From the NCBI GenBank assembly GCA_028280405.1, contig JANQLW010000053.1:1-64000 (forward strand): a stretch of DNA of 64,000 nucleotides, in the 5' to 3' direction. Each line of letters opens with the position of its first letter. Position 1 is the stretch's first letter. The notes below the pieces were generated by a model that was not told the origin of the DNA, ran no database searches, and worked only from the letters and a program-made list of their open reading frames with translations. Source of the stretch: Bacteroidales bacterium (GTDB lineage: Bacteria; Bacteroidota; Bacteroidia; Bacteroidales; GCA-2711565). Both the position numbers and the translations under genes were made by a program. Positions 2,502 to 54,705 of this stretch are shown piece by piece.

Positions 2502-2512
2502 AAAGTTATGGG

Positions 2513-5628: not shown

Positions 5629-5638
5629 ATTATAAATG

Positions 5639-5685: not shown

Positions 5686-5699
5686 AATCCATAATTCTT

Positions 5700-30673: not shown

Positions 30674-30709
30674 CAAAACAATTATTCATTATTAAACTTT
30701 AAATTCTCA

Positions 30710-32071: not shown

Positions 32072-32111
32072 AGACAAAATTTACTTCCTTCCAATTTCTA
32101 AATAAAAAACT

Positions 32112-32119
32112 TATTTTTG
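32112..32119 (+). promoter_or_regulatory. Possible -7 element very close to the start codon
   Basis: TATTTTTG (TAnnTTTG) ends only 4 bases before ATG 32124. If real, the mRNA would have almost no leader. It may be a chance match. Confidence 0.3.
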
Positions 32120-32123
32120 TTAT

Positions 32124-34133: not shown

Positions 34134-34410
34134 TAATCAAACTCTTATTCAAATACAAAATAAATTATTTTTTATTTAGCATTGAATTTAAATTATTTAT
34201 ACTTTTACACTCGAGAAATTTACCACGATGAATTGGGTACTAAAATTTAAAATAAAAGTTAATCGTACCGCACTTTGTTAAAAAGTGTTTTCTGACTTAT
34301 CCTTCCGGGTATTTTCTTAATCCTCATTTCATTTATTATTACGCCTGCTTTACTGCCCGGAAAGTATAAACTTACTGTACTTATTTATTTTTATTTAACA
34401 AGAAATTACC

Positions 34411-35928: not shown

Positions 35929-35959
35929 AGCAAAAATGAAATTTAATTAGCTATAAATC

Positions 35960-36044
35960 GTGTTCAGGTGTTTATGTATTTACGTGTTTGATTAGATGCT
36001 CTAACTACAACAGGCAAAACACAAACGCTAAAACACACAAAAAC
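35960..36044. repeat. Imperfect inverted repeat of GTGTTTA words between the lyase genes
   Basis: Left arm words GTGTTTATGTATTTACGTG (about 35969-35987) face a right arm, about 36011-36044, whose complement reads GTGTTTTAGCGTTTGTG. It fills most of the gap between the two ammonia-lyases and ends close to the second ATG. Related words occur at 25589-25622. Confidence 0.55.
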
Positions 36045-36052
36045 AAAAACTT

Positions 36053-37576
36053 ATGACTTATATTGTAACGGGAACAGGCTTAACTATAGAAGATGTAGTA
36101 GCCGTTGCACGCCATGGGAAAAAAGTGGAATTATGTCCGGAAGCCATTGAACGCATTGATAAATGCCGTGCAATGCTTGAGAAAAAAATTGAAGCCAATG
36201 AAATCATGTACGGAGTCAATACAGGTATTGGTGAATTTTCTGAAGTTGTTTTAGATGATGATCAGGTTAAAGAATTTCAAAAATACCTGATCTATAATCA
36301 TGCGGCCGGAATAGGTGAAGCGATGCCATTGGAAGATGTTCGTGGAGCAATGTTAGGTCGTATCAATGTCCATGCACATGGCAATTCCGGAGTACGCAAG
36401 GAAATTACTTTAACCTTGGTTGATATGTTAAATAAGGGAGTTACTCCTTATGTATGTAAAAAAGGTTCTGTGGGTGCTTCGGGAGATTTGGCCCCTATGT
36501 CGCAAATTGCCTTATTAATGATGGGTGAAGGGAAAGCCTTTTATGAAGGGGAACTTCTGGAAGGTAAAGAAGCATTGGACAGAGCTGGAATTCCTGTTCC
36601 GGGATTGAAAGCACGTGATGGTTTGGCAACTATTAATGGTTCCAATGTATTAACTGCAATGAGTGCCATTTTACTATATGATGCTAATCGCTGGTTAAAG
36701 CAGGCAGAAATTGGTGCAGCGATGTCGTTGGAAGCTTTAAAAGCAAATATGAAACCTTATACTTCGAAATTACATGAAGTCAGAGGTTTCGCCGGAGCTA
36801 TTCGTTCGGCTAATGCCATCAATAAAATGGTTGATGGAGGTGATCTAAAAGAACAACGCATTAAATGTAAAGTTCAGGATGCCTATTCTATGCGTTCTAC
36901 TCCACAGGTTATTGGCGCAGCACATGATGCATTAGCTTATGCCCGCTTGCAAGTAGAAATTGAATTGAATGGTGTAGGAGATAACCCAATCTTCTTCCCT
37001 GAAGAAAACCTTCAGCTTTCAGGAGCCAACTTCCAGGGAACACCGGTCGCAGTTCCAATGGATATGGTAGGTGCTGCGATTACGATGGTTTCTGTGATGT
37101 CGGAGAGAAGAATGAACAGATTGAATAATCCGGCTTTAAGTGTAGGCTTACCTGCATTCTTAACCAAAGGTGCCGGAATGTTCTCAGGTTTAATGTTATC
37201 ACAATATACTGCAGATATGCAAATTGTGGAACAAAGGATCTTATCAACTCCCGCAAGTATTCAAAGTATACCTGCCGCAGCTGACCAGGAAGATTTTGTA
37301 TCTATGGGAATGAACACAGCATTAAAGAATATTCAAATTCTGGATAATGCCTATGGAGTTTTAGGTATTGAGATTATGGCAGCAGCTCAGGCTCTTGATT
37401 TCAGGGATTACAGATTTGGTGACGGTGTAACCAAAGCCAAAGAAGTTGTTCGCCAGTATGTAGAGTTCCTGGACATTGATCGTCCATTATATAACGATCA
37501 TAATACAATGAAAGAATTGATAAAATCCTGTGAAATACTTGAAGAAGTACAAAAAGTAGTAGGAAGCTTAGAATAA
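36053..37576 (+). CDS. HAL/PAL-family MIO ammonia-lyase, second paralogue
   Basis: A 507-residue aromatic amino acid lyase. MIO is formed in KGSVGASGDLAPMSQIALL. YGVNTGIGEF, YNHAAGIGE, VQDAYSMRSTPQVIGA and ADQEDFVSMGMN correspond to the substrate-pocket segments. The QED in the last one is kept as in histidine lyases, but the following His is Phe and the NH pocket motif differs from its neighbour. It is therefore a distant paralogue of the upstream hutH rather than a recent duplicate, and may act on another amino acid. It probably belongs to the same transcription unit. Confidence 0.75.
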   Translation: MTYIVTGTGLTIEDVVAVARHGKKVELCPEAIERIDKCRAMLEKKIEANEIMYGVNTGIGEFSEVVLDDDQVKEFQKYLIYNHAAGIGEAMPLEDVRGAMLGRINVHAHGNSGVRKEITLTLVDMLNKGVTPYVCKKGSVGASGDLAPMSQIALLMMGEGKAFYEGELLEGKEALDRAGIPVPGLKARDGLATINGSNVLTAMSAILLYDANRWLKQAEIGAAMSLEALKANMKPYTSKLHEVRGFAGAIRSANAINKMVDGGDLKEQRIKCKVQDAYSMRSTPQVIGAAHDALAYARLQVEIELNGVGDNPIFFPEENLQLSGANFQGTPVAVPMDMVGAAITMVSVMSERRMNRLNNPALSVGLPAFLTKGAGMFSGLMLSQYTADMQIVEQRILSTPASIQSIPAAADQEDFVSMGMNTALKNIQILDNAYGVLGIEIMAAAQALDFRDYRFGDGVTKAKEVVRQYVEFLDIDRPLYNDHNTMKELIKSCEILEEVQKVVGSLE

Positions 37577-37633
37577 ACAATAAGATAAGCATGAAAAGGA
37601 GATTATTTCAAAAGTATTAATAATTTGAATTTT

Positions 37634-37715
37634 AGTCAGGGCGTGAATCGTTAATTAATTAAGTATATAACATTTATCTTTTGTTGAATTTTGCAAGTAC
37701 ATTCACATCCTGACT
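37634..37715. repeat. Inverted repeat AGTCAGGGCGTGAAT / ATTCACATCCTGACT
   Basis: The arms at 37634-37648 and 37701-37715 pair with two mismatches across 52 bases. A third copy of the right-arm word (ATTCACACCCTGACT) sits at 56168-56182, so the word is dispersed. A short dyad GAGA-AA-TCTC followed by T7 (37719-37735) could end the lyase transcript. Confidence 0.55.
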
Positions 37716-37726
37716 TTTGAGAAATC

Positions 37727-37830
37727 TCTTTTTTTATTCCCTAATTCTGTACTTTTGAAAACATAACGGAATTAAAGGAAAAGCAAATTGAACAGTCTAA
37801 AAAAAGGCCTGAATTACGACGAACTATATT
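37727..37830 (+). pseudogene. 5' fragment copy of the membrane-protein gene at 43026
   Basis: This stretch copies the T-run of the terminator, the promoter element TACTTTTG (37750-37757) and the first roughly 20 codons of the gene at 43026: it reads ELKEKQIEQSKKRPEL against ELQEKQIEQPKKRPEL. The start codon has become ACG (37766) and similarity ends near 37830. It is an untranslated relic. With the intact copy it brackets the SusC/SusD pair between them as direct repeats. Confidence 0.8.
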
Positions 37831-38252
37831 CAGATCATATAAGAATCAAATTCAAACCATTTTCTTCATATATAGTATCTATTTTATAGGTAATTTTCAA
37901 TTTTATCTGCCAATTATCATTTTTTTCATATAAAATTTTTATTATTTGCTTTTTTTTATACATTTGTGAGTAACTAATTTGCTTTGGGGTTTATTTTATA
38001 ATAAATTTAAATAAGCAATTAAGAAAGTGCATGAATATTATAGGTTAAACTTCTTAAAAATTTAAACGATTGCATGAATGCAGATCTGGCAGTCTGTATT
38101 TAGGCAAATGCATTGTTATTTTCTTTTGATAGTTCTATAATATTATTCTATGAAATAAACTGTTATTCATGTTGACCCTGATTCGGTTGACTGCTCTAAT
38201 AGTAACAGATTTATATATGAATCAATTTTTTTATTAACCAAATTTTTTAATT
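37831..38252 (+). other. Leader region of the first large SusC operon
   Basis: No gene is seen. A -7-like element TACATTTG lies at 37959-37966, which would give a leader of about 285 bases; no matching -33 box is found. The last 30 bases (TTATTAACCAAATTTTTTAA then ATGAG) are nearly identical to those before the SusC at 50035 and similar to those at 44724. AAACTGTTATTCATG and GATTCGGTT are shared loosely with the third leader. Confidence 0.4.
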
Positions 38253-41200
38253 ATGAGAAAATTTACAATTTGGCTAACGTGCTTATTGTTCTTCTTAAGT
38301 ATTGGAATGGCCAATGCGCAAACTAAAGTAATTACAGGTACCGTTACAGGTGCCGATGATGGTTTGCCGATTCCTGGTGTTACCGTAATGGTGCCAGGTA
38401 CTACTACAGGTGTTATCACTGACTTTAACGGTAAGTATGAGTTAAAAGTCGGAAATGATGTAAACTTCCTTAGATTCTCTTACGTTGGTATGGTTACCCA
38501 AGATATTGCTATTGAGGGTAGAACTGTTATCAATGTAGTGATGAAGTTATCTACTACTGCTCTTAGTGAAGTTGTTGTTACCGCAATTGGAATCAAACGA
38601 GAGACCAAAGCCTTAGGGTATTCTGTACAAAACGTAAGTGGAGAAGCAATGACCAAAGGCAACAATGCAAATGTTGTTAACGCAATTGGAGGTAGAATTG
38701 CCGGAGTACAGGTAAACAATTCTTCAGGTGCAGCCGGAGGTTCTTCATACATTACAGTGAGGGGGGCAGCTTCACTTACAGGAGAGAACCAACCTCTTTT
38801 TGTCGTTGATGGAATTCCTATAGATAACTCTCAAAGTTATACAGGAAATCCTGATGACGGAAGAAACAACCTAACTGATGGAGTGGCATATGCAAATCGT
38901 GCAATTGACTTAAATCCGGAGGATATCGAATCAATCACCGTACTTAAAGGTGGAGCTGCAACAGCATTATACGGTTTACGTGCTGCAAATGGTGTTGTAC
39001 AAATTACGACCAAAAAAGGCTCAAATTCAACGAGAATGAGTATTAATGTTCATTCATCAGTGACCATTGATAAGATATCTCAAGTTCCGGGCCTTCAAAA
39101 AGAATATGCAGCAGGTTTAAGTGGAACCTGGGCTGGGCCAGACGGTCCATGGTATAAAATGCTTTCCTGGGGACCCAAAATTTCTGATATGGAGTATGAC
39201 GGTTCTGATTATAAATGGGACCCTCATGGTAAACTCGTTTCTAAAGGGTCAGGGAATGGAAACCCGGCACAAGCTTATGATCATTATGACTTTTTTGAAA
39301 CAGGTTCAACCTTCAACAATTCGCTTAGTATGTCGGGAGGTAATGAACTCTCAACCTTTTACACTTCTGTATCACATATGAGAAGTAATGGAATTATTCC
39401 TAAGAATACATATAATAAAACAACTTTCAGGATATCAGGAGATACTAAATTAACCGATAATTTTAAGATTTTTGCAAGTGCAAATTATATTCATTCTCAT
39501 GGTGTTAGAATACAGCAAGGATCTAATGTATCAGGAGTTATGCTTGGATTACTAAGAACCCCTCCTTCATTCAATAATAAAATATATGAGTTTGAAGAGG
39601 ATGGATCTCAAAGAAATTTTAGAGGTGGTGGTGGCTACGATAACCCCTATTGGACTGTAAATAAAAATCCTCTAACAGATCGGGTAAACAGAATGATCGG
39701 AAATATGGGTTTCAACTACAAACCCTACGAATGGATGACTATTGACTACCGTATTGGTATTGATTGGTATAGAGATGCCAGAAAACAAATATTTGCAATT
39801 GGCTCCAGAGCTAATCCTGCAGGCCGATTCATAGACAATACTCATTTTAACAGGGATGTTAACTCCGACTTAGTAGTTACTGTTAATCGAGATCTAAAAG
39901 AAGATTTAAAATTAAATGTTATAGCCGGGCATAATATGTACCAAAGTTATTATCAACGAATTTATGTACAGGGCGATGATATAAACATTCCTGGGTTTTA
40001 TCACATCTCAACGACAAGTTCAAATTTAGTAAGAGAAAATGTAGATAGAAAGCGTACTGCAGCATTCTATGCTGATTTAGGTTTGGAATGGAAGGACATG
40101 TTATTTTTAAATGCTACAGGCCGTTATGAATGGTCCACAACTTTACCGGAAAGTAAAAATAGCTTTTTCTATCCTTCTATTAATGCCGGTTTTATTTTTA
40201 CAGAATTACCTGCATTTAAAAATAGTAAAATATTATCTTTTGGTAAATTAAGAGCTTCCTATGCAAGAATAGCAAATGATGCTGCAATATATAGCACTTT
40301 AAATTACTATACACTCTCAGCATTTAAGGATCCTTCAACCGATGGAATCTCATTCCCGTTTAATAAAGTTCCTGGTTTTACAAAAAGTAACATTCTTGCT
40401 GATGAAACAAATTTAAAACCAGAAAGTACCAAAACATGGGAAATTGGATTTGACCTGAAGTTTTTCAATAATAGACTTTCTCTTGATATATCTTATTATA
40501 GTTCTGTTCACTCTGATTTACTACTTCCAGTTACTATTTCAGGAGCTTCAGGTTATACTGACAAATATATGAATGCCGGTGAAATGACTAATAAAGGAGT
40601 TGAAATTTTGCTTCAGGCAACACCTGTACAAACAAAAGACTTGCGATGGGATATTTTGGTAAATTTTGCGAAAAATAAGAATAGAGTCACCAAATTAGCC
40701 CAAGGAGTTGATAATATCTCTCTTGGAGGGTTTGTAGGTTCAACTATGCGCGCTGTTGTTGGCTATTCATACGGTTCTATTTTTGGGTACGACTGGAAAC
40801 GTGATGAGCAAGGTAATAGTATTGTTGACGATAGTGACCCAACAGCTATCACTTATGGTTACCCGATTTATGATCCTACAGAGATTGCTTTAGGCGATAA
40901 TTTACCTGATTGGACTGCCGGTATTACAAATACATTTACTTATAAAAACCTAACCCTTTCATTTTTAATTGACATCAAAGAAGGCGGGAAAATGTGGAAT
41001 GGAACCAAAGGTGTATTAATGTGGTTTGGAACACATGAACAAACATTAGATAGAGAAACATCAATAGTTTGGGAAGGTGTAAAAAGTGATGGAACCCCTA
41101 ATGATATTGTAATTAACAAAGATGAAAATTTTTATACGGAAGTCTATAATGGTTGGTACGGCCCTTCTTCTCCATTTATTGAAGATGCAGACTGGGTAAG

Positions 41201-41429
41201 ATTAAAAGAACTCTCAATTAATTATGACCTGCCTTCAAAATGGTTCAAAAACTCACTATTTAAAAGCGCGAGTATCTATTTTACTGGCAAAAACTTATGG
41301 GTAAGCACTCCTTACACTGGTGTTGACCCTGAAACAAGTTTATTTGGTGCTCACAATGCCCAAGGCTTAGATTACTTTAATATGCCAGGTACTAAAAGCT
41401 ATATTTTGGGTGTAAGGTTTTCTTTATAA
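38253..41429 (+). CDS. SusC/RagA TonB-dependent transporter
   Basis: An outer-membrane transporter of 1058 residues with signal peptide (about 1-22, ending MANAQ), carboxypeptidase-like domain (about 27-105; GADDGLPIPGVTVMVPGT), plug (LNPEDIESITVLKGGAATAL, YGLRAANGVV) and barrel ending GVRFSL. No STN domain, so it is not coupled to FecR. The plug variant LKGGAATALYGLRA is typical of SusCs that pair with SusD-like_2 lipoproteins, as the next gene is. Its N-terminal 100 residues are near-identical to those of the SusCs at 44724 and 50035, whereas the barrels diverge. Confidence 0.94.
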   Translation: MRKFTIWLTCLLFFLSIGMANAQTKVITGTVTGADDGLPIPGVTVMVPGTTTGVITDFNGKYELKVGNDVNFLRFSYVGMVTQDIAIEGRTVINVVMKLSTTALSEVVVTAIGIKRETKALGYSVQNVSGEAMTKGNNANVVNAIGGRIAGVQVNNSSGAAGGSSYITVRGAASLTGENQPLFVVDGIPIDNSQSYTGNPDDGRNNLTDGVAYANRAIDLNPEDIESITVLKGGAATALYGLRAANGVVQITTKKGSNSTRMSINVHSSVTIDKISQVPGLQKEYAAGLSGTWAGPDGPWYKMLSWGPKISDMEYDGSDYKWDPHGKLVSKGSGNGNPAQAYDHYDFFETGSTFNNSLSMSGGNELSTFYTSVSHMRSNGIIPKNTYNKTTFRISGDTKLTDNFKIFASANYIHSHGVRIQQGSNVSGVMLGLLRTPPSFNNKIYEFEEDGSQRNFRGGGGYDNPYWTVNKNPLTDRVNRMIGNMGFNYKPYEWMTIDYRIGIDWYRDARKQIFAIGSRANPAGRFIDNTHFNRDVNSDLVVTVNRDLKEDLKLNVIAGHNMYQSYYQRIYVQGDDINIPGFYHISTTSSNLVRENVDRKRTAAFYADLGLEWKDMLFLNATGRYEWSTTLPESKNSFFYPSINAGFIFTELPAFKNSKILSFGKLRASYARIANDAAIYSTLNYYTLSAFKDPSTDGISFPFNKVPGFTKSNILADETNLKPESTKTWEIGFDLKFFNNRLSLDISYYSSVHSDLLLPVTISGASGYTDKYMNAGEMTNKGVEILLQATPVQTKDLRWDILVNFAKNKNRVTKLAQGVDNISLGGFVGSTMRAVVGYSYGSIFGYDWKRDEQGNSIVDDSDPTAITYGYPIYDPTEIALGDNLPDWTAGITNTFTYKNLTLSFLIDIKEGGKMWNGTKGVLMWFGTHEQTLDRETSIVWEGVKSDGTPNDIVINKDENFYTEVYNGWYGPSSPFIEDADWVRLKELSINYDLPSKWFKNSLFKSASIYFTGKNLWVSTPYTGVDPETSLFGAHNAQGLDYFNMPGTKSYILGVRFSL

Positions 41430-41442
41430 AAAATAATAAAAA

Positions 41443-42894
41443 ATGAAAAATATTATGAACAATATAAATATTAAAAAATTAGGAGTGCTATTTATTGTAT
41501 TCCTTGTTTTTACATCTTGTGAAAAGTGGATTGATCCGGATTACAATGTAGATCCAAACAATCCTATAGATGTATCAATGGATCTATTGCTTGCTTCTTC
41601 AGAAGTAGCATTAGCTTACGATGCCGGAGCTCAAATGTCCAGAACGCCCTCTATGTGGATGCAGCAGATTACAGGTGTAACATCGCATGCTGCCGGTTAT
41701 GAAAAATATGTATGGCTGGAAGGTGATGTAAACGGATTTTGGAAATGGAATATTTATGCCGGTTACTTGCATGATCTAAAAATTCTTATGGATAAGGCTA
41801 AAGAATCAAATTCTCCTCATTACGAAGGTGTGGCAAAAGTTCTTTCTGCATATGTTTTAGGAACAACAACTGACCTTTGGGGAGACATTCCTTATTCTGA
41901 TGCTTTTCAAGGCAATGCAAACCTAAAGGCAGCTTATGATACCCAAGAAGAAATATATAATACTATATTTACATTCCTAGATGAGGCAATAACAACTGAT
42001 TTAACTGCTACTACAAGCTTATATAGCCCGGGAAGCGAAGATTTCTTTTATGGAGGGGATCTGGATAAATGGAAAAAATTAGCTTATGCTTTAAAAGCAC
42101 GTTATAAGTTACATTTATCTAAAAAGAATTCTACTGTATATACTGAAGTTTTAACTGCACTGGCAAATGGATTTGAATCAAGTGATGATGACTTTGAATT
42201 TACAGATTTCTCAACAAAATCATCAGAACAAAATCCTTATTACCAGTATCATGAACAACGTGAAGGGTATATAGGAGGTTTAGGCGAACGATTGATGAAC
42301 ATGCTTAACAATAACACACCTGCAGATTTAACTGATGACGATCCAAGAATATCTATCTATGCAGAAAAAGCTAAAGATGGATCATATATTGGATCTCCTG
42401 CCGGAAACCCCTTAGCCGACCAATCCTATATTGGCAGTTATTTTATTGCAAAAGATGCACCGGTCTCAATTATGTCATACGCTGAACTAAAATTTATTGA
42501 AGCTGAAGCAAAACTTCCAACTGATGCTGCAGGAGCTGCTACAGCATATAATATGGCAGTAAAAGCTTCTCTTGCAAAATACGGAGTAAGCAATACCACA
42601 TGGGAAGCTGCAAATGCAAGTGAAACTGAAACAAGTATTACTCTTGAGAAAATTATTACGGGTAAATACATTGCGCTATTTATGAATATGGAAGTATATA
42701 ACGACTGGAGAAGAACAGGTTTCCCCGTACTTACAAAAGCTCATTTAGCTGCTGTTGGTGAAATTCCGAGAAGATGGCCTTATCCAACTTCCGAAAGAAG
42801 TTTCAATAGTGAAAACTATGATGCTGCGGTTAGTCGTCAGGGATTCAGTGCTGGTACAAGTATAGTAGATAGAGTATGGTGGGATGCAAATTAA
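41443..42894 (+). CDS. SusD-like nutrient-binding lipoprotein (SusD-like_2 type)
   Basis: A 483-residue lipoprotein with lipobox VFTSC (Cys about 26) followed by EKWIDPDYNVDPNNP, the start typical of the SusD-like_2 branch. WMQQITGVTS, AKVLSAYVLGTTTDLWGDIP and YAELKFIEAEAKL are further signatures. The C-terminal region has MNMEVYNDWRRTGFP. It lies 13 bases after its SusC partner. The operon ends at the terminator at 42963-42995. The substrate is unknown. Confidence 0.88.
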   Translation: MKNIMNNINIKKLGVLFIVFLVFTSCEKWIDPDYNVDPNNPIDVSMDLLLASSEVALAYDAGAQMSRTPSMWMQQITGVTSHAAGYEKYVWLEGDVNGFWKWNIYAGYLHDLKILMDKAKESNSPHYEGVAKVLSAYVLGTTTDLWGDIPYSDAFQGNANLKAAYDTQEEIYNTIFTFLDEAITTDLTATTSLYSPGSEDFFYGGDLDKWKKLAYALKARYKLHLSKKNSTVYTEVLTALANGFESSDDDFEFTDFSTKSSEQNPYYQYHEQREGYIGGLGERLMNMLNNNTPADLTDDDPRISIYAEKAKDGSYIGSPAGNPLADQSYIGSYFIAKDAPVSIMSYAELKFIEAEAKLPTDAAGAATAYNMAVKASLAKYGVSNTTWEAANASETETSITLEKIITGKYIALFMNMEVYNDWRRTGFPVLTKAHLAAVGEIPRRWPYPTSERSFNSENYDAAVSRQGFSAGTSIVDRVWWDAN

Positions 42895-42962
42895 ACTGAT
42901 GTTTTCATAAATAAGTCGACTTTGTGTCAACTTATTTTAAGACGAGACATATAACGAGAAAA

Positions 42963-42995
42963 AGGCCTGGACAAATTGTTCAGGTCTTTTTTTTT
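42963..42995 (+). terminator. Intrinsic terminator after the first large SusCD operon
   Basis: AGGCCTGGAC pairs with GTTCAGGTCT (10 bp with two G-T pairs) around a 5-base loop and is followed by T9. It separates the SusCD pair from the membrane-protein genes. Confidence 0.85.
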
Positions 42996-43009
42996 ATCAT
43001 CTAAATCTG

Positions 43010-43017
43010 TACTTTTG
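43010..43017 (+). promoter_or_regulatory. Promoter -7 element for the small membrane-protein pair
   Basis: TACTTTTG (TAnnTTTG), 8 bases before ATG 43026. The same element is kept in the relic at 37750-37757. Confidence 0.5.
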
Positions 43018-43025
43018 AAAACATA

Positions 43026-43454
43026 ATGGAATTACAGGAAAAGCAAATTGAACAGCCTAAAAAAAGGCCTGAATTACTAACAATTCTTTGCATATTAACA
43101 TTCATAGGAAGTGGGCTTCAAGGCATCTCCAATATTTTTGTTTTTAGCAATCAGGAATTGATTATCGAACAATTTATAGACAGCCCTTTTTACAATGAAG
43201 ATATGCACAAGTATTTTGAAACCGATTCAAAATTCTTCCTGCTTAACTCAATGGTATATTTTACTTCTTTATTGGGAGCTATATATATGTGGAGGCTAAA
43301 AAAAATAGGATTTCATCTCTACACCATGTCTCAAATAGCTGTTCTTTTTATATTTTCTATATATAAACCTATGCCTGGCATACCTACACTTGAAATAATT
43401 GTTACCGGTTTATTTATATTTTTATATTATAGAAATCTCAAATTCATGAGTTAA
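43026..43454 (+). CDS. Small membrane protein, unknown function
   Basis: A 142-residue protein with a charged N-terminus (LQEKQIEQPKKRPEL) and about four membrane helices (near 17-37, 73-91, 97-112 and 118-135). An extracytoplasmic loop at about 38-70 carries acidic and aromatic residues (DSPFYNEDMHKYFETD). No known motif. It overlaps the following membrane gene by one base, so they are coupled and may form a complex. Its 5' end has been duplicated upstream of the preceding SusC gene. Confidence 0.65.
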   Translation: MELQEKQIEQPKKRPELLTILCILTFIGSGLQGISNIFVFSNQELIIEQFIDSPFYNEDMHKYFETDSKFFLLNSMVYFTSLLGAIYMWRLKKIGFHLYTMSQIAVLFIFSIYKPMPGIPTLEIIVTGLFIFLYYRNLKFMS

Positions 43455-43861
43455 TGAGTGTAGAAAAAAAAGAAAAAATAAACATTAGTCAAGGTCCTAT
43501 ATGGTATAAGATGCTCTGTTTAGCGGCAGCAACCTATTCTATTTTATATATTCTTATTTTTGTTACCGGTATCATTAATCTTTCGCTACTCAATAAAGTA
43601 TTTAGTATTTATACGGATACTCCACCTGATCCCAATTATATACTTTTATTTGTTACATTGAATTTAATCTTAAGCTTATTTATGTTTTATGGAGTTATAA
43701 AATTGTTTAAGTCCAGAAAAGTAGGTTATTTTTTCTTCGAGTTCTCTGCACTTTTAATGATTGCAACAAAACTACTGTTTAACAATAGAAACTTTTTTGA
43801 AATAGGGCTAATAACACTATTTATATTATTGTTTACTATAAGAGTGAAGAAGTATAACTAA
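43454..43861 (+). CDS. Small four-helix membrane protein, unknown function
   Basis: A 135-residue protein with a short charged N-terminus (SVEKKEKINISQG) and four hydrophobic helices (about 20-45, 63-83, 88-108, 114-130). It ends in the basic tail RVKKYN. Topology and size resemble the upstream gene (charged start, loop after helix 1 with YTDTPPDPN), so the two may be ancient duplicates. Start and stop overlap (TAATG). No function can be assigned. Confidence 0.6.
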   Translation: MSVEKKEKINISQGPIWYKMLCLAAATYSILYILIFVTGIINLSLLNKVFSIYTDTPPDPNYILLFVTLNLILSLFMFYGVIKLFKSRKVGYFFFEFSALLMIATKLLFNNRNFFEIGLITLFILLFTIRVKKYN

Positions 43862-44723
43862 TCATAGCATCCTTCAGGCAATATTTCATTTTTTAAGCAG
43901 AATATTTCCCAATCCAATTTTAGTACTTTAAAAATTAAACTATCATTTTGTTATTTCTGCCAAACTAGTAAAGAAATTAAAATATAGAATAGAAAGTTTT
44001 TTATATCAAAATTTTTCCTGATTTTAAAATAACAGATTATCAAAAGAATTGTATGGGAAGGGGGAATAAAAGAGCTTCTTTTTTTGATGGTTATTAATTA
44101 TTCACCTACCCAAAACCCTCAATTTATCAGCAAAATCAACAATAATTCATCTAAAGTATTAATTATTTCGTCTATTTTTTAGCAAACTTTGTATTTAAAA
44201 AAAATTATTTTTTTATTCAGGATTCAATTTTTTATGCTTCGTATACACCTGATTATCAAAACAAAAGGATTTAAAAACTTTAAACATATTTAGTCCGGAT
44301 TTGCTAAAAGTACTATTTAATAAAGAAAAACAGAATATCTAACCCATTTGAAAATAAAGAAAATATAATTACATTTGTTATACAACATTGTAATCAACCA
44401 AACAATGTCTTAATTCTTTATGAAAAACTTATTGTGATCCTCTTGTATGGGATGACGATGCAAAGCTGGAGTTTGAGCATTGATAATCAATATATACTCA
44501 TAATTAAACTATACTTACCAAAGTATCTTTTTTTAATCTGATTATCGATCGAGATTTTTGTTGGTAGATACACTATAGATAAACCTAAAAGTATCTTATC
44601 CAATTATGAGGTTACCCTCAAGCCATTCACTCCTAATTTTATTTAACAATCATAGGGAAAAAAGAAGGATATGAATCTATACTTAGTATGAATCTTATAT
44701 ATTATTAATCAATTTTTTTAACT
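43862..44723 (+). other. Long gap with the promoter and leader of the second large SusC operon
   Basis: 862 bases without a gene. The first 470 bases are AT-rich, with short T-runs (one after AAGAGCTTC near 44067) but no strong hairpin. A complete promoter lies at 44347-44377. The remaining 340 bases form a leader without recognisable riboswitch or peptide. The last bases resemble the leaders of the other two SusC genes. Confidence 0.45.
44347..44377 (+). promoter_or_regulatory. Complete promoter for the second large SusC operon
   Basis: TTTG (44347-44350), 19 bases, then TACATTTG (44370-44377): an exact match to the Bacteroidota TTTG-N19-TAnnTTTG consensus. The predicted leader to ATG 44724 is about 340 bases. 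Confidence 0.75.
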
Positions 44724-47700
44724 ATGAAAAAATTTACTATTTGGCTAACATGCTTACTATTTTTTGCAAGCATGGGTTTAGCTCATTCACAAACCAAAAC
44801 AATTACAGGTACGGTTACCGGTGCCGATGATGGTTTACCTATTCCAGGTGTAACTGTAATGGTACCCGGTACTTCCACAGGGACTACAACAGACCTTAAT
44901 GGGATATACACGCTCAAGGTAGGTTTGAATGTAAATGCTCTACGTTTCTCTTATGTTGGTATGGAAACTCAAGATATTGAGATAGGAACCCAAACCATAA
45001 TAAATGTTGTAATGCGAACAAGTGCTACTGCACTTGATGAAGTTATTGTTGTTGCCTTTGGTACAGCAAAAAAATCTTCATTCACCGGATCTGCAGCTGT
45101 AATTAAAAATGAAGAAATTGTAAACACTTCTGGTAGCCTTGTTAAAGCTATCCAGGGAACAGTTGCTGGTGTAACGGTAATTGGCGAAGAAATAAGAATA
45201 CGTGGTACTGCTTCATTTAATGCATCAGGAACTCCATTATATGTAGTAGATGGAGTTGTTGGAGCACCAAGACCAAGAGATGAAGACATTGAGAATATGA
45301 CTATTCTTAAAGACGCTGCTTCGACTGCATTATATGGTTCCAGAGCTGCGAATGGTGTGATTATCATCACCTTAAAAAAAGGTAAAAAAGGAGTAAAACC
45401 TACATTTACTGTAAAGTATCAAAAAACTTTTTTCAAAAGGATTGAAGAAAAATATGACTTTATGAATTCTGAACAACACTTTAGAACAGTATGGGAAGGG
45501 ATGAGAAACTCACAACTACGAAATAACCAAACATTATCTGATGCTATTATGTTTGCTAACGAAAATATTGTTGGTGAATATAATGGGCATAACCCTTATA
45601 ATATGGATCAGCCATTTGATGCAAACGGAGATCTGAAGTCAAATGCCAAATTACTTTATTCTACAGACTGGGAAAATGAAATTCTTAGAAATGCAGTTAG
45701 GGATGAAGTTTATTTAGCATCAGAAGGTGGTAGTGAGAACATAAACTACCATTTTTCAATTAATTGGGATAAATTTAAAGGCCAAGTTTCCAATAGTCAG
45801 TCAGAAAAAATTGGTGTTGATTTAAGTATTAATGCTAAAGCAAACAGCTTTATTGATTTAGGAGCGAGAGCCAGAATTGAGTATGTAAATGATAATAATA
45901 CTTATCAGGCAAGTTCGGTTGAATCAAATTTATATAATATGGCTAAAGTCTTAAATCCTGTTTCTCCACTTTATGTGTTAACTAAAGTTAATAATAGTGA
46001 TGGGACATGGACTTATGATTATGAACTGGATGCACTTGGTGAGAAACAATTCGAATATAGAAACTCTCAATACAATGGATATAACCCACTGGGATTAATA
46101 AATTTAGATTATGACAAATCATACAGATATAATTCTTTTTTCTCTCCATTTATTAGAGTAAAAGCCCTTGAAGGTCTTGAATTCTATGCATATGGATCAG
46201 CAAGGCTAAATACCCTTAGATCCGACTATTGGCAAACAAACTTATATGGTTCTGGTGCCACTATCGGAGGTTTTTCTGAAAAATCATCCTGGCATCAGAA
46301 ACGTTTAACCGGCCATGCTCAGTTAACCTATCAATTCAATGTTAAAGAAGACCACCATTTTGATTTATTGATTGCAACTTCTAGAGACCACACATATTAT
46401 AGTGAATTTGACGCTTCCATCATTGGATTTGAATTAGGTGAGACTTCTCATGAATTTGGTGCAGGTACCAAACCTCAAAAGCCTAGCTCAGACATAGTTG
46501 AGGATGCAAAAATTGCTTATTTCTCTAATTTTAAATATGATTATAAAAATAAATACTATTTATCAGCATCAATACGTCATGACGGATCTGCAAAATTTGG
46601 TGCTAATAACAAATGGGGAACATTCTGGTCAGTTGGTGCATCCTGGAAAATGTCGGATGAAGATTTCTTGAAAAACGCTGATTGGGTTGACCTTTTAAAA
46701 TTCAGAGCTTCTTATGGTGTAACGGGAACAGATGCTATTGATTCGTATATGTTTGGCAACTATTTCACTTTGGGTGCAAACTATGATCACAAAATTGGCC
46801 TGGTTCATTCAAACCTTCCTAATGATAATTTAGGGTGGGAAACAAATTATCAGTTTTCTGCTGCTTTTGAATTTGAGCTGTTTGGTAAATTATCAGGTAT
46901 CCTTGAATTCTATAACAAGGACAGTAAAGACCTATTACTTGAAGTTCCAATCCCACTTACAACCGGATTTCAAACCGTATTTAAAAATATTGGTGAGATG
47001 AACAATAGAGGTATAGAGCTTACTCTTAACCATGTTAATATCAGGAAACAAGATTTCACCTGGAAATCATTATTTACTCTTTCTTATAACAAAAATAAGA
47101 TCACAAAACTTCCTGATGGAAATCCGATTCAACAAGGTTCAAAAAGATGGGAAGAAGGAAAATCAAGATATGAATTCTATATTAGAGAATGGGCAGGTGT
47201 AAATCCTGATAACGGTGCAGGACAATGGTATATAGATGTTCTTGATAATGACGGTAATGTTACTGGACGTGAACTTACTGAGGATTATCAAGCTGCAACT
47301 AAATATTATGTTGGAAGATCATTACCTGATGTATTTGGATCACTGAAAAATGATTTTAGTTATAAAGGATTTGATCTATCGATTAATTTGTATTATTCTA
47401 TAGGAGGAAAAGTTTATGACGGATCCTATGCAGCAGCAATGCACGATGGTGCCGATGGTGTTGCCCAGTTAAGCACAGATGCACTTAATGCCTGGAAAGA
47501 ACCAGGACAACAAACTGATGTCCCGATTTATATTCATAATAATACTGAACAATCTAATTATATGTCAACAAGATGGTTAGTAGACGGAACATTTCTTAAA
47601 ATTAAAAACATCAGTTTAAGCTATAACCTGCCTGAAAGTATCTGTAACAAACTAAAAATGTCTGAATTTAAATTATTTGCTACAGTAGACAACTTACACA

Positions 47701-47813
47701 CCTTTACAAAATACAAATCAGGAGATCCTGAACAAAGGTTATCAGGTAGATCGTTTGGTTATTTATTGCCTAACCAAAAAACTTTCAGATTTGGTATTCA
47801 GGCTAAATTCTAA
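44724..47813 (+). CDS. SusC/RagA TonB-dependent transporter
   Basis: 1029 residues: signal peptide (about 1-22, ending LAHSQ), carboxypeptidase-like domain (about 27-105; GADDGLPIPGVTVMVPGT), plug (DEDIENMTILKDAASTALYG) and barrel ending FGIQAKF. SATALDEVIVVAFGT marks the TonB-box/plug junction. No STN domain. The N-terminal text is close to that of the other two SusCs in this run; the barrel is its own. Followed 38 bases later by its SusD. Confidence 0.94.
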   Translation: MKKFTIWLTCLLFFASMGLAHSQTKTITGTVTGADDGLPIPGVTVMVPGTSTGTTTDLNGIYTLKVGLNVNALRFSYVGMETQDIEIGTQTIINVVMRTSATALDEVIVVAFGTAKKSSFTGSAAVIKNEEIVNTSGSLVKAIQGTVAGVTVIGEEIRIRGTASFNASGTPLYVVDGVVGAPRPRDEDIENMTILKDAASTALYGSRAANGVIIITLKKGKKGVKPTFTVKYQKTFFKRIEEKYDFMNSEQHFRTVWEGMRNSQLRNNQTLSDAIMFANENIVGEYNGHNPYNMDQPFDANGDLKSNAKLLYSTDWENEILRNAVRDEVYLASEGGSENINYHFSINWDKFKGQVSNSQSEKIGVDLSINAKANSFIDLGARARIEYVNDNNTYQASSVESNLYNMAKVLNPVSPLYVLTKVNNSDGTWTYDYELDALGEKQFEYRNSQYNGYNPLGLINLDYDKSYRYNSFFSPFIRVKALEGLEFYAYGSARLNTLRSDYWQTNLYGSGATIGGFSEKSSWHQKRLTGHAQLTYQFNVKEDHHFDLLIATSRDHTYYSEFDASIIGFELGETSHEFGAGTKPQKPSSDIVEDAKIAYFSNFKYDYKNKYYLSASIRHDGSAKFGANNKWGTFWSVGASWKMSDEDFLKNADWVDLLKFRASYGVTGTDAIDSYMFGNYFTLGANYDHKIGLVHSNLPNDNLGWETNYQFSAAFEFELFGKLSGILEFYNKDSKDLLLEVPIPLTTGFQTVFKNIGEMNNRGIELTLNHVNIRKQDFTWKSLFTLSYNKNKITKLPDGNPIQQGSKRWEEGKSRYEFYIREWAGVNPDNGAGQWYIDVLDNDGNVTGRELTEDYQAATKYYVGRSLPDVFGSLKNDFSYKGFDLSINLYYSIGGKVYDGSYAAAMHDGADGVAQLSTDALNAWKEPGQQTDVPIYIHNNTEQSNYMSTRWLVDGTFLKIKNISLSYNLPESICNKLKMSEFKLFATVDNLHTFTKYKSGDPEQRLSGRSFGYLLPNQKTFRFGIQAKF

Positions 47814-47851
47814 TTTGCAAATAGGATAACAGATAGTTTAAAAATTTAAAA

Positions 47852-49387
47852 ATGTTTAAAATGAAAAAATTTAAAATAATAAATATTATTGCAATTATGG
47901 CAATATTACTTGCTTCATGTAGCGATGATATACTTGAAGTAAGTCCTTCGGATAGAATTGAAGCAGATAAGGTTTTTAAAACTCAAGAATCAATTGAAGC
48001 TCTTCGTATAGGAATGTACAATCTATTAGGTGGAACCCCTACTGTTTACGAGCCTACTCTTTACCAATTATTACTTCCGGTTATGGGAGACATCCTTGGT
48101 AATGATATGGTTTATGGTTCAACCTGGTATGTTGCTTACAACCCAGAACATCAACTAAAAGCTAATGCAGATGGGAGTGGAGTATATGATGTATGGGAAA
48201 AGTGTTACTATTTAACAGAGATAGCTAATACGATTGCCGTTAATGAAGAAAAAATTGCAGCTACGATTGGTACTGCTGCAGCTACGAAATATGTAATTGA
48301 AGCTAAAGCTATCAGAGCTATGGTTTATTATGACTGCTCTAAATTTTATGGTAAAGCATATCATTTAGATGATGGTGCTTCAAAATCAATGCCCTATGTT
48401 GATTATATAGATTATGAAGCACTTCCAACAGCAAGTACAATGAATGAAATCTACACGAAAGCAATTGCTGATATTGAAGCAGCAATTCCTCATCTTCCAA
48501 GTATTACTGATATTGAAAGTAGAAAATGGATGAACAAAAATGCCGCATATGCCATACTTTCCAGAATATACTTAGATATGCATAATTATGAGAAAGCTAG
48601 AGATTATGCAGTACTTGCCATTGATGGTGTTGGATTCTTAACTACCGAACAATATAAATTAGGTTTATCCCACATCAATGAAGAAACTATTTTAGGGTTT
48701 GTTTTACACGAAGATAATTACTACAAATGGCGTTCTTTCACTACTTTCCACGATCCTTATGATGGAATGGGTGATGACTTTTTAGCGAACTACACTTTAT
48801 ATGACTTAATTGGGGATGATGATATCAGAAAAAAATTCTTCTGGCATGAATGGTTCTACCATGAGTATTATCAAGATTATGAATGGAGTGATATAGAGGC
48901 AGCCTATAGTGGTGCAAACTGGTGGTTCCTTGCAAATATTAAGCAGCCTAAGGGGTATTATACTTATGGCAAATTTCCAAGAATGGATGTTCAATACGGA
49001 GCCTCAGGAAAATCAGGAACATTAGGACTTGGTCATTACAGTTGTATACGTTCGTCAGAAATGTATTTAACCATTGCTGAATGTGAGGCAAGATTAGGTA
49101 ATGATGCAGAAGCACAAAACAACTTATTCATGACTGTAAGCAGAAGTATTCCTGATGCTGAAAAATCAATCAATACCGGACAAGATCTTATTGATGAAAT
49201 ATTACTTGAAAGAAGAAAAGAGTTGTTTGGTGAAGGCCATGGATACAGAGATGTCCTAAGGTTAGGAAAAGGTTTAACCAGAGATGGTTCTCAACCGCTA
49301 CACGAATTTATACCTGCTGGTGATCCAAGATTCGAATGGCCATTTCCTCAAAGAGAAGTTAATGCCAACCCAAATCTTCAGAAGTAG
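47852..49387 (+). CDS. SusD/RagB-family outer-membrane lipoprotein
   Basis: 511 residues; lipobox LLASC (Cys about 23), then SDDILEVSPSDRIEADKVF, a classic SusD start. Signatures: IEAKAIRAMVYYDCSKFYGK in the TPR-like part and LLERRKELFGEGHGYRDVLR near the C-terminus. A second in-frame ATG three codons in is an equally plausible start. Partner of the SusC at 44724; the operon ends at 49411-49447. Confidence 0.92.
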   Translation: MFKMKKFKIINIIAIMAILLASCSDDILEVSPSDRIEADKVFKTQESIEALRIGMYNLLGGTPTVYEPTLYQLLLPVMGDILGNDMVYGSTWYVAYNPEHQLKANADGSGVYDVWEKCYYLTEIANTIAVNEEKIAATIGTAAATKYVIEAKAIRAMVYYDCSKFYGKAYHLDDGASKSMPYVDYIDYEALPTASTMNEIYTKAIADIEAAIPHLPSITDIESRKWMNKNAAYAILSRIYLDMHNYEKARDYAVLAIDGVGFLTTEQYKLGLSHINEETILGFVLHEDNYYKWRSFTTFHDPYDGMGDDFLANYTLYDLIGDDDIRKKFFWHEWFYHEYYQDYEWSDIEAAYSGANWWFLANIKQPKGYYTYGKFPRMDVQYGASGKSGTLGLGHYSCIRSSEMYLTIAECEARLGNDAEAQNNLFMTVSRSIPDAEKSINTGQDLIDEILLERRKELFGEGHGYRDVLRLGKGLTRDGSQPLHEFIPAGDPRFEWPFPQREVNANPNLQK

Positions 49388-50034: not shown

Positions 50035-53000
50035 ATGAGAAAATTTACTATTTGGCTAACATGCTTATTGTTTTTTGCAAGCATGGGACTAGCTAATGCG
50101 CAAACTAAGGTAATCACAGGAAAGGTTACCGGTGCTGACGACGGTTTGCCAATTCCAGGAGTAACCATTGCAATTCCAGGTACATCTACAGGTACGGTCA
50201 CCGATATTAACGGTAATTACCAAATAACTTTGGATGCAAATGTTACAACTTTGCGCTTTTCTTATGTTGGGATGACCACTCAAGATGTAGAGATTGGAAA
50301 CCGAACAGTTATTAATGTTGTAATGAAGTTTTCCGTAACCGCTTTAGATGAAGTGATTGTCGTTGCTTACGGTACAACTACAAAAAAATCGTTTACAGGA
50401 TCTGCAACTTCAGTAAAAACTGAAAAGCTTGAAAAATTATCAGTTACGAATGTTTCTTCTGCTCTTCAAGGTAATGCTACTGGTGTGCAAGTTATATCAT
50501 CTTCTGGTCAGCCAGGTACAGATGCTACAATTCGTATCCGTGGTATTGGTTCTATCAATGCTTCAAGTAATCCTTTATATGTAGTAGATGGTGTACCTTT
50601 CGGTGGTAGTATTAACTCCATTCAACCTTCAGATATTGAAAGCATGACTGTTCTTAAAGATGCTGCAGCAACTGCTCTTTATGGATCAAGGGGTGCTAAT
50701 GGTGTAATTATGATTACAACTAAAAAAGGTAAAAAAGGTAAAGCAAAAGTTAATATTAAAGTAAGCCATGGTATCAGCTCTAAAGCTGTTGAAGACTATG
50801 AAACTGTAGGTGCTGCTGATTATTATAAACTTATCTGGACCGCACTTAAGAATAAAAAAGCCGGCGAAGGTGATCCAAATCCAGCTCAATGGGCTACTGA
50901 TAATGTAGTTACAACTTTAGGTTATAATCCTTTTAGTGTTGCAAAACCAATTGATACTAATGGAGAAGTTGCTTCTGGAGCAGAACTATTATGGGATACT
51001 GACTGGATGGATGCTATTTTAGATAACGGGCAAAGAAGTGAATACATATTTGATGTAAGTGGTGGAACGGAAAACACAAACTACTACATGTCATTAGGAT
51101 ACCTTAAAAATGAAGGTATTGTTCCTGTTTCTGATTTTGAAAGATTTAATGCAAGGGTTAACTTAGATATGAAAGTTAACGAATGGTTTAAAACCGGTAT
51201 TAACATTGCAGGATCAACTTCTAATCAGAACTATCCAAATACTGCGGGTAGTAGTTACTCTAACATGATTCAGTTTGGTAGAAATGTAGCTCCTATTTAT
51301 CCAATTTATTTAAGAAATACAGATGGTACTTTTATCCTGAACGATGATGAATCTAAAATCTTTGACTATGGTCAGGATGGAGACCAAGATGGTAGAGGTG
51401 CAAGACCAACAGATGGTTACCCAAATACCAATGTTTTAGGGGGTGCAATGTTAGATAAGAGATTATATGAAAGAGATAATGTTTCGTTACGTACTTATAT
51501 GGAAGCACAAATCATTGAAGGCTTAACGTTCAGATCTAACTTCAGCTATGATTATTATGTTTATAATCGTCACGAATATGCCAACCCTGATTTCGGGTAT
51601 GCTAAATCTTATGGAGGGTTCTCTTATAAAGCAAGAACAAAAGCCACTACTTATACCTTCAACAATCTATTAACTTATGATAAAAATTTTGGAGATCACA
51701 ATATTAATTTATTAGGTGGACATGAAGCTTATAAATACACTTACTATTATTTATTTGCTTCGGGATCAGCTTTCCCGTTTGCCGGACTAGAAGAGTTAGA
51801 TGCTGCTGCTGCAACTCAGGATATTAGTTCTTATAGAAATGATCACAGAATTCAGAGTTTCTTAGGCCGTGCCGAATATAACTATGCAGGAAAATACTAT
51901 TTATCTGCCAGCTATCGTCGTGATGGTTCTTCAAGATTCCACGAAGATTACAGATGGGGTGACTTCTGGTCTTTAGCAGGCTCCTGGAGAATGAGTGAAG
52001 AAAATTTCATGAAATCTATTAACTGGATTGACAACATGAAAGTTAGGGCAAGTTATGGTACATTAGGAAACGATGCTCTAAATTCAGGTTTTTATGCATA
52101 TCAGGGATTATACTCTACCGGTTATAACAACTTAAGTGATGCTGGTCTTTTAATTAACAAATTGGAAAACCAAAGTATTACTTGGGAGGTAAGTAAAACC
52201 ATGAACATAGGTTTAGAAGTTGGAATTTTAAATAAATTCAATTTTGAATTTGAATTTTTCAATAGAAAAGTTGAGGATATGTTATTTGCACGTCCATTAC
52301 CAAATTCTACTGGTATCACATCTATCGATGAAAACGTTGCAGATATGAAAAACGTTGGTTTCGAAGGTAGTATTTTTGCACAACTAATAACAAATAAAGA
52401 TTTCAAATGGTCAATTGATTTGAACTTCACTCACTACAAAAATACAATCACTAAACTTCCTGAAGACTCTAAAGAAATCATTTCTGGTTCTAAAAAATTA
52501 ATGGAAGGACATTCTTATAATGAATTCTTCATTCAGGAATATGCCGGTGTAGATCCCGATAATGGAGATGCTTTATGGTATAAAGATGTTTATGAATTAG
52601 ATAGTGAAAACAACCCAGTACTTGATGATAATGGAGATAAGATTGTAATTGGCAGAGAAACTACAAATGAATACTCAGAAGCAGATAAATATTATGTTGG
52701 TAAATCATTACCAGATCTATATGGTGGTATCACTAATAACTTATCTTATAAAGGTTTTGACTTATCAGTATTCGTTTATTACAGTTTAGGTGGTAAAATT
52801 TTAGATGGTGACTACCAACAGCTTACTCATTCAGGTTTAAGGTATGGTGGATCTATGTCAGTTGATATGTTAAACGCATGGGCCCCAGATAACACAACAT
52901 CTGATATTCCTAGAATAGATGCTGGTACTACTGATGCGAACTCAAGATCAAGTAGATACCTTGTGGATGCTTCTTATTTAAGATTAAGAAATGTTACCTT

Positions 53001-53193
53001 AGGTTATACACTACCTAAATCAATTACACAAAAAATTCATTTCGATAAAGTTCGTCTTTACGTAAGTGCTGATAATTTATTTACTATTTTCGGAACTGAT
53101 GGACTGGATCCCGAAGTTAACGTTAGTGGTACAACAAATAACAGATACCCACAATTAAAAACTGTAACTTTTGGTATTAATGTATCTTTCTAA
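50035..53193 (+). CDS. SusC/RagA TonB-dependent transporter
   Basis: 1052 residues: signal peptide ending LANAQ, carboxypeptidase-like domain (GADDGLPIPGVTIAIPGT, about 33-50), plug (IQPSDIESMTVLKDAAATAL, YGSRGANGVI) and a barrel ending GINVSF. No STN domain. The DNA of the leader end and first 60 codons is very close to that at 38253, pointing to a recent shared origin or gene conversion of the 5' part. Paired with the SusD 12 bases downstream. Confidence 0.95.
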   Translation: MRKFTIWLTCLLFFASMGLANAQTKVITGKVTGADDGLPIPGVTIAIPGTSTGTVTDINGNYQITLDANVTTLRFSYVGMTTQDVEIGNRTVINVVMKFSVTALDEVIVVAYGTTTKKSFTGSATSVKTEKLEKLSVTNVSSALQGNATGVQVISSSGQPGTDATIRIRGIGSINASSNPLYVVDGVPFGGSINSIQPSDIESMTVLKDAAATALYGSRGANGVIMITTKKGKKGKAKVNIKVSHGISSKAVEDYETVGAADYYKLIWTALKNKKAGEGDPNPAQWATDNVVTTLGYNPFSVAKPIDTNGEVASGAELLWDTDWMDAILDNGQRSEYIFDVSGGTENTNYYMSLGYLKNEGIVPVSDFERFNARVNLDMKVNEWFKTGINIAGSTSNQNYPNTAGSSYSNMIQFGRNVAPIYPIYLRNTDGTFILNDDESKIFDYGQDGDQDGRGARPTDGYPNTNVLGGAMLDKRLYERDNVSLRTYMEAQIIEGLTFRSNFSYDYYVYNRHEYANPDFGYAKSYGGFSYKARTKATTYTFNNLLTYDKNFGDHNINLLGGHEAYKYTYYYLFASGSAFPFAGLEELDAAAATQDISSYRNDHRIQSFLGRAEYNYAGKYYLSASYRRDGSSRFHEDYRWGDFWSLAGSWRMSEENFMKSINWIDNMKVRASYGTLGNDALNSGFYAYQGLYSTGYNNLSDAGLLINKLENQSITWEVSKTMNIGLEVGILNKFNFEFEFFNRKVEDMLFARPLPNSTGITSIDENVADMKNVGFEGSIFAQLITNKDFKWSIDLNFTHYKNTITKLPEDSKEIISGSKKLMEGHSYNEFFIQEYAGVDPDNGDALWYKDVYELDSENNPVLDDNGDKIVIGRETTNEYSEADKYYVGKSLPDLYGGITNNLSYKGFDLSVFVYYSLGGKILDGDYQQLTHSGLRYGGSMSVDMLNAWAPDNTTSDIPRIDAGTTDANSRSSRYLVDASYLRLRNVTLGYTLPKSITQKIHFDKVRLYVSADNLFTIFGTDGLDPEVNVSGTTNNRYPQLKTVTFGINVSF

Positions 53194-53205
53194 ATTGTAA
53201 GAATT

Positions 53206-54705
53206 ATGAATAAAATAAAAAAATATTTAAATATAACACTAGTTGCCTTAATCATTTGGGGCATGAGTGCATGTAGTAAGGATTTTCTTGAAACAACTCC
53301 TACTACTGATATTTCAGATCAAGATGTATTTAAAACTACATCTGGAACTCAAACCGTTTTAAACGGATTATACAGATGGCTCAGAGAATATAACTCTGGG
53401 GGAACATCACGCCATGAAGATATGGGACAAAAGTCTGTTGATATTACTCTGGACGTTCTTGACGGAAGAGATGTTGTTATCCCTTATCCAGCCTGGTATT
53501 ATTTTGACCATGATATGGGCTTTGACTATACAAAAGGTACCTACTCTAAACCAAGAGGTATTTGGAATTTCTATTATAAAATAATCAATAATGCAAATAG
53601 TATCATTGTAAACATTGCAAATGCTGAAGGTAGTGATTCGGAAAAAAATAGAATTAAAGGAGAGGCTTTAGCATTAAGAGCCTATGCTTATTTCTATTTG
53701 ATTAATATATTCCAACATGCATATATTGAGGGTGCTGATAAACCGGGTGTACCTATTTATACTGAACCTGCAACAGCTGAATCAGAAGGAAACCCAAGAG
53801 GTACGGTACAAGATGTTTATGATCAAATCATTAGTGATTTAACTGAAGCTAAATCATTGCTTCCGGCCAGCGGAGCAAGAGGTAATAAATCTCATGTTAA
53901 TGTAAATGTTGTTGATGGAATTTTTGCCAGAGTACACTTATTTATGGGCAGCTGGTCTGCAGCAGCAACTTCAGCTGCAGCAGCTCGTACAGGATACCCA
54001 TTAGGAAGCCAGGCTGATTTTGTAGCAGGATTTAATGATTACGGTTCTGGTGAATGGATTTGGGGACTTCCTTTCCAACAAGATCAACAGCACTATTACT
54101 ATTCTTTTTTCTCTATGTATGATATGGAAAGAGCAGCTGGATATTTCAATATGAGAATGAACGACGACATGTACGATTCTTATTCTGATGAAGATATCAG
54201 AGCTAAAAAAGCAATAGGAGAATATCCTCTTGTTGTTATGAAAAACGCTCCACCTATTAATTCAACTATTTATACAGTTAGTGATAAATATGTTATTAGA
54301 AAATTCAGAGATACTCCGGAGCAAACCGGACATTATATATTAATGCGTTCTGCAGAAATGATTCTTATCGAAGCTGAAGCTAAAGCTGAACAAGGTATGG
54401 ATACTGAAGCTCAGGATTTATTATTCTTAATTCAGTCAAGAGCTGATGCAACTGCTGTAAAATCAACCAACACAGGGCAAGATCTTATTGATGAAATTCT
54501 TTATGAAAGAAGAAAAGAATTATTAGGTGAAGGTTTAGCTTCTACTTTAGATATAAAACGCAGAAGCCTTCCATTAGTCAGAACAGGTTCTCATTACTTC
54601 CCAGGTTCATTGCCAGCTGGAAGTAACAGATTGGTATGGCAAATTCCTCAAGCCGAAATTGATGCAAACAAAAACATCAGTGAGTCAGATCAAAATCCGC
54701 TTTAA
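53206..54705 (+). CDS. SusD/RagB-family outer-membrane lipoprotein
   Basis: 499 residues; lipobox GMSAC (Cys about 23), then SKDFLETTPTTDISDQDVF. Signatures: GEALALRAYAYFYLINIFQH and LYERRKELLGEGLASTLDIK. It shares STNTGQDLIDEIL with the SusD at 47852 (there INTGQDLIDEIL), so these two SusDs are close relatives, unlike the SusD-like_2 protein of the first operon. Partner of the SusC at 50035. Confidence 0.92.
   Translation: MNKIKKYLNITLVALIIWGMSACSKDFLETTPTTDISDQDVFKTTSGTQTVLNGLYRWLREYNSGGTSRHEDMGQKSVDITLDVLDGRDVVIPYPAWYYFDHDMGFDYTKGTYSKPRGIWNFYYKIINNANSIIVNIANAEGSDSEKNRIKGEALALRAYAYFYLINIFQHAYIEGADKPGVPIYTEPATAESEGNPRGTVQDVYDQIISDLTEAKSLLPASGARGNKSHVNVNVVDGIFARVHLFMGSWSAAATSAAAARTGYPLGSQADFVAGFNDYGSGEWIWGLPFQQDQQHYYYSFFSMYDMERAAGYFNMRMNDDMYDSYSDEDIRAKKAIGEYPLVVMKNAPPINSTIYTVSDKYVIRKFRDTPEQTGHYILMRSAEMILIEAEAKAEQGMDTEAQDLLFLIQSRADATAVKSTNTGQDLIDEILYERRKELLGEGLASTLDIKRRSLPLVRTGSHYFPGSLPAGSNRLVWQIPQAEIDANKNISESDQNPL

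Follow-up and report, generated by a model that had tools for sequence, protein, structure and literature searches.

A truncated gene start and a displaced SusC/SusD pair suggest gene-order change by duplication and loss in a Bacteroidales genome

We analysed a 64,000-nucleotide stretch (the window) of contig JANQLW010000053.1 from the Bacteroidales bacterium assembly GCA_028280405.1. Here a SusC/SusD pair, SusCD_A (38253-42894), is bracketed by two copies of the start of mem1, a gene for a small membrane protein, as an earlier note on this DNA had described: a functional copy at 43004-43080 and a truncated relic at 37744-37820, behind the ammonia-lyase gene HutH2. The relic lies at the ancestral address of mem1, the gene order around it is derived and SusCD_A is present in a single copy. 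The explanation we favour, with confidence only a little better than even, is a rearrangement of gene order by duplication and complementary loss within this island.

Ungapped comparison of the two copies, at an offset of 5260, found 71 of 77 positions identical (92%). The match ends abruptly at 37820, with identity dropping to 17/50 (34%) over 37821-37870. Local alignment of the repeat gave a score of 69, compared with a maximum of 15 among 200 Markov-resampled controls, and BLAST detected only these two copies in the whole genome (91% over 93 bp, E 8e-32). The repeat contains the promoter box TACTTTTG and codons 1-17 of mem1 (the gene at 43026), and the coding match stops after codon 17 (GAA TTA followed by C). 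The relic start codon is indeed ACG in place of ATG (37766-37768). Including this change, all three differences between the relic and mem1 within codons 1-17 alter an amino acid (M1T, Q4K and P11S), which fits an unselected fragment. The start codon of the relic is positioned ~190 bp past HutH2, a spacing typical for mem1 elsewhere. The relic lacks a start codon; its frame runs on for 55 codons without a stop and has a hydrophobic end, which we took as chance in AT-rich DNA.

The promoter part of the repeat thus agrees with the earlier note, which had further included 20 codons and the preceding terminator T-run. The coding match covers 17 codons, and the T-runs behave differently. In the T-run stretch (37725-37743) 15 of 19 positions are identical, and the four mismatches fall within the 14 bases past the T-run. 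The two T-runs also sit behind different hairpins, GAGAAATCTCTTTTTTT in the HutH2 terminator and GGCCTGGACAA..TTGTTCAGGTCTTTTTTTTT in the SusD_A terminator. Because the hairpins differ and the bases that follow differ at 4 of 14 positions, the T-runs probably belong to two distinct terminators, neither copied from the other, and cannot clearly be counted as part of the repeat. This probable lack of homology would suit the view that the two regions have only terminator and promoter sequence in common, or resemble each other by chance. That view is refuted by the ~51 bp of coding sequence that match in frame, outside the terminator and promoter, and it also conflicts with the alignment score and with the uniqueness of the copy in the genome; we assign it virtually no weight.

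To place the relic in context, the window was compared with 111 distinct mem1 loci from public genomes. HutH is found upstream of mem1 in 86 of these loci with a median gap of 113 bp, and 85 of the gaps are ≤1.27 kb, leaving no room for a SusCD pair between the two genes. SusC was upstream of mem1 in none of the 111 loci and downstream in 57 of the 63 that have at least 4 kb of downstream sequence. The block of the congener G001 reads aldolase-HutH1-HutH2-mem1-mem2-SusC-SusD-...-SusC-SusD-M23-iorB-iorA-acpH-HK. The same order is found in G002, spread over two contigs, and the contigs of G003, G004 and G005 read HutH2-mem1-mem2 before ending within the SusC leader or start. In G010, from an outgroup family, the order is HisS-HutH-mem1-SusC-SusD. 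HutH2 is 86-89% identical in five congeners, where mem1 adjoins it, making it the conserved left neighbour of mem1. The outer genes of the window are collinear with G001, but the inside reads HutH2-relic-SusCD_A-mem1-mem2-SusCD_B-SusCD_C. Relative to its relatives the window therefore has adjacent blocks swapped on the same strand (HutH2-SusCD_A-mem1-mem2 versus HutH-mem1-(mem2)-SusCD). Since essentially all relatives have the latter arrangement, comparative gene order indicates that the order in the window is derived and that the relic marks the former place of mem1. Exact TAnnTTTG boxes within 45 bp upstream of mem1 occur in 8 of 64 loci against a background of ~2%; we rejected this -7 promoter box as a general feature of the mem1 family, as it is enriched yet present in those 8 loci only.

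We then asked which SusCD pair had moved. For the SusC following the mem genes in relatives, the best match in the window was SusC_A in 50 of 51 cases. In a phylogenetic tree SusC_A falls inside the clade of post-mem1 SusCs (support 99), and in G005 the incomplete SusD that lies left of the second pair is likewise A-type. On the strength of these three comparisons SusCD_A appears to be the ancestral neighbour of mem1-mem2, now found on their opposite side. SusCD_A is single-copy in the genome, the next best SusC being ~33% identical. The identity between SusC_B and SusC_C is 40%, and each is ~26% identical to SusC_A in the barrel; judged by these values, SusCD_B and SusCD_C are of another type than SusCD_A and not products of the rearrangement. 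The suggestion that the locus shows how SusCD pairs multiply is consequently unsupported: the rearrangement appears to have caused a net relocation without raising the number of pairs. As a separate observation, G001 (C32:13720-18236) and G002 (C11:5421-9937) each carry a second A-type SusCD outside the HutH island, the SusC of which is sister to their own island SusC in the tree.

Duplication with complementary loss would start from an ancestor with the order HutH2-mem1-mem2-SusCD_A. An extra copy of [mem1-mem2-SusCD_A] would have arisen, most simply by a tandem duplication whose junction placed the beginning of the mem1 promoter after the SusD_A terminator. From the first copy, mem1 codon 18 through mem2 would then have been lost, in a deletion ending upstream of the SusC_A promoter box at 37959, and the second copy would have lost the SusCD_A formerly 3' of mem2. 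The outcome would be one working copy of each gene, promoter included, with SusCD_A now preceding mem1-mem2 and the truncated, ATG-less first mem1 start left as the scar. From this end state we infer both deletions and an intermediate in which the module was present twice in full. Tandem duplication followed by loss had been proposed in the earlier note for a [SusCD-membrane gene] module; duplication with partial loss is still the best available account, but the unit would be [mem1-mem2-SusCD]. The relic has diverged by ~8%, whereas third positions of HutH2 are ~49% different from each of three congeners compared, which would place the event after the congener split and make it young relative to the genus.

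Several observations weigh against this reconstruction. Two overlapping genome sets from the order (247 and 393 genomes, without same-species strains) revealed no intermediate with two full modules, the undeleted tandem. No mem2 remnant was found in 37821-38252, and neither 43862-44723 nor the rest of the genome yielded a remnant of a second SusCD_A. A remnant of the latter kind is optional under the model, so its absence only limits the claim, yet each of the two deletions must have been clean. In addition, SusC_A is not sister to the SusC found at the same place in congeners; it branches, on a short branch, outside the 12-row set that holds them (96/96 support), a tree position that would fit import or older paralogues. 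Finally, the window belongs to a draft assembly of 91 contigs.

Import would explain both this tree position and the absence of a second SusCD_A. A fragment from a close strain, consisting of the HutH2 3' end, mem1', mem2' and SusCD_A, would have entered by recombination at the conserved HutH2, coming to lie upstream of the resident mem1; later deletion of mem1'-mem2' would have left the relic, and SusCD_B would be the resident pair. This requires one insertion and one deletion, one step fewer than one duplication and two deletions, and is in line with the strong conservation of HutH2 and the 8% difference between relic and mem1. However, the donor mem1 start must have been ~92% identical in DNA, whereas mem1 of the known congeners is 40-54% identical in protein and no such very close donor is known. 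Furthermore, G001, G002 and probably G005 already have an A-type SusCD after mem2, so that an outside source is not needed. We consider import unlikely, while ranking it first among the alternatives. The draft state of the genome would also allow for a false join of two strains at this locus during assembly. With 6 mismatches in 77 bases, the copies have no long exact word in common, which leaves the assembler no false overlap, and gene order on both flanks is collinear with the congeners; such an artefact is very improbable.

When similar scars were sought at other loci, one was found, in Lentimicrobium sp. RS341 (JANJXJ010000167, locus L108). Here the mem1 promoter region and first 24 codons are duplicated between HutH and mem1 (2429-2521 versus 3440-3533, ~90% identical), and the insert between the copies encodes a Y1/IS200-like transposase (PF01797) amid REP-like palindromes (locus span 2224-3533). 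As in the window, HutH is followed by a mem1 relic, an insert and an intact mem1; unlike in the window, the insert is a transposase unit rather than a SusCD pair, and the SusCD of this locus stays downstream. L108 is a second scar of this type, of independent origin. No coding scar other than L108 was detected by blastn of 80 genome-contig loci plus the non-duplicate extra loci, or by tblastn of 46 HutH-mem1 gaps. Locus L174 (G156) was rejected both as a scar fragment and as an undeleted tandem: its second mem1-like gene is 3.1 kb apart, with no DNA repeat and no SusCD between. At three other loci (L184, L121 and L208), short repeats of 38-58 bp lie in the intergenic gap between HutH and mem1, without a coding part; this suggests that the gap is prone to short duplications. 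Since unrelated inserts, SusCD here and a transposase in L108, are bracketed by the mem1 promoter region and first 17-24 codons, the mem1 start behind HutH could be a recurrent duplication site in Bacteroidales, at which a shared repair or recombination route adds DNA while regenerating mem1. We hold this to be improbable, and two cases do not suffice to name the mem1 start a hot spot.

The geometry of L108 around its Y1-transposase unit also bears on a one-step relocation, in which SusCD_A was excised and inserted at mem1 codon 17, and ~80 bp of target were duplicated in repair, restoring mem1 downstream. This would produce the identical final structure from a single event. Nevertheless, neither a transposase or integrase gene nor terminal repeats were seen at the ends of SusCD_A (37821-42998), and a target duplication of ~80 bp is far longer than those that transposases make. 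Duplication of the mem1 promoter would moreover be a matter of luck, and we regard a one-step relocation as improbable.

Duplication with complementary loss has known counterparts. In tandem duplication-random loss (TDRL) of animal mitochondria, adjacent blocks trade places without inversion: a tandem copy is followed by complementary deletions, and pseudogene remnants are sometimes left behind. TDRL is established for mitochondrial genomes (for example PMC3283314), in contrast to the bacterial locus described here. Going by titles and the first lines of abstracts, the literature found on TDRL in connection with bacteria describes no bacterial case. In the SNAP model of Brandis and Hughes (2020), a segment is duplicated, different genes are lost from each copy and a new bacterial gene order is trapped (PMC7055797). 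Its authors stated that there was so far no direct empirical evidence for such rearrangements in modern bacteria, and proposed a search for remnants in the form of pseudogenes that have a matching active counterpart (PMC7055797). The window would share with this model the duplication, the complementary loss and the new gene order, and it has a remnant at the former place of the gene. In contrast to the large duplications with essential genes under selection that SNAP envisages, the unit here would be ~6 kb. A literature search for SusC/SusD together with tandem duplication returned no relevant paper. By analogy, the process would match SNAP and TDRL, and the value of the locus would lie mainly in being a clean test case for duplication with complementary loss, with a remnant at the ancestral address, a displaced block and a scar of fairly recent date. 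The locus further shows that the scar should not be read as a record of rising SusCD numbers.

The features of the island are collected in Table 1. SusC_A and SusD_A form a pair in the usual sense, a TonB-dependent SusC/RagA receptor followed by a SusD-family lipoprotein (TIGR04056, TIGR04057 and PF12771). Apart from the SusC leader, the region between the relic and SusC_A has no further significant copy in the genome.

Table 1. Features of the HutH-mem1-SusCD island, in window coordinates
Feature	Position	Strand	Remarks
HutH2, histidine/aromatic ammonia-lyase	36053..37576	+	Pfam PF00221, NCBIfam NF006871
HutH2 terminator region	37630..37736	+	long inverted repeat, then GAGAAATCTC hairpin and T-run; fold -22.0 kcal/mol
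Relic of mem1	37744..37820	+	-7-type promoter box TACTTTTG at 37750-37757; codons 1-17, ATG to ACG at 37766
SusC_A upstream region	37821..38252	+	own TAnnTTTG box at 37959; SusC leader 38157-38252 common to SusC_C
SusC_A, SusC/RagA-type TonB-dependent outer-membrane receptor	38253..41429	+	TIGR04056, Pfam TonB domains
SusD_A lipoprotein, SusD-like_2	41443..42894	+	PF12771
SusD_A intrinsic terminator	42958..42998	+	directly left of duplicated mem1 promoter; fold -21.7 kcal/mol over 42940-43000
Functional repeat copy	43004..43080	+	promoter box TACTTTTG at 43010 and first mem1 codons
mem1, small multi-helix membrane protein without family model	43026..43454	+	homologues beside HutH in 86 loci
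mem2, second small membrane protein	43454..43861	+	homologue at same place in G003; open reading frame at same place in G001, G002, G004 and G005
SusC_B/SusD_B	44724..49387	+	pair now 3' of mem2; not the ancestral neighbour type
SusC_C/SusD_C	50035..54705	+	third pair of the island

The neighbourhood of the remnant, HisS-(HutH1)-HutH2-mem1-(mem2)-SusC-SusD, is kept across Bacteroidales genomes (window 30671-43861; loci L064-L143). No Pfam or NCBIfam model covers mem1 or mem2. This conserved arrangement suggests a functional link between the ammonia-lyase, the small membrane proteins and one type of SusCD, a combination about which a full-text literature search found no paper.

The SusC leader and first 110 residues are alike within the island (A-B 75%, A-C 72% and B-C 75%), whereas the barrels are 26-36% identical; the 5' stretches compared were 38157-38580, 44687-45050 and 49937-50360 of the window and contig C103 of G001. 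The island SusCs of G001 behave similarly, with 78% in the 5' parts versus 30% in the barrels, and cross-species 5' matches are mostly lower. These values suggest gene conversion of SusC 5' ends inside the island. SusC genes with a near-identical 5' part also recombine locally in the SusC shufflons, or phase-variable SusC loci, of Bacteroides, by invertase-driven DNA inversion. The window resembles these in its SusC genes sharing an alike 5' part, but in the island every gene points the same way and an invertase was not observed. The 3' parts of SusD_B (49156-49236) and SusD_C (54453-54533) contain an 81-bp direct repeat with 84% identity. Elsewhere in the window there are two long imperfect palindromes, at 6449-6503 (55 bp, 91%) and 5628-5696 (~70 bp, 82%).

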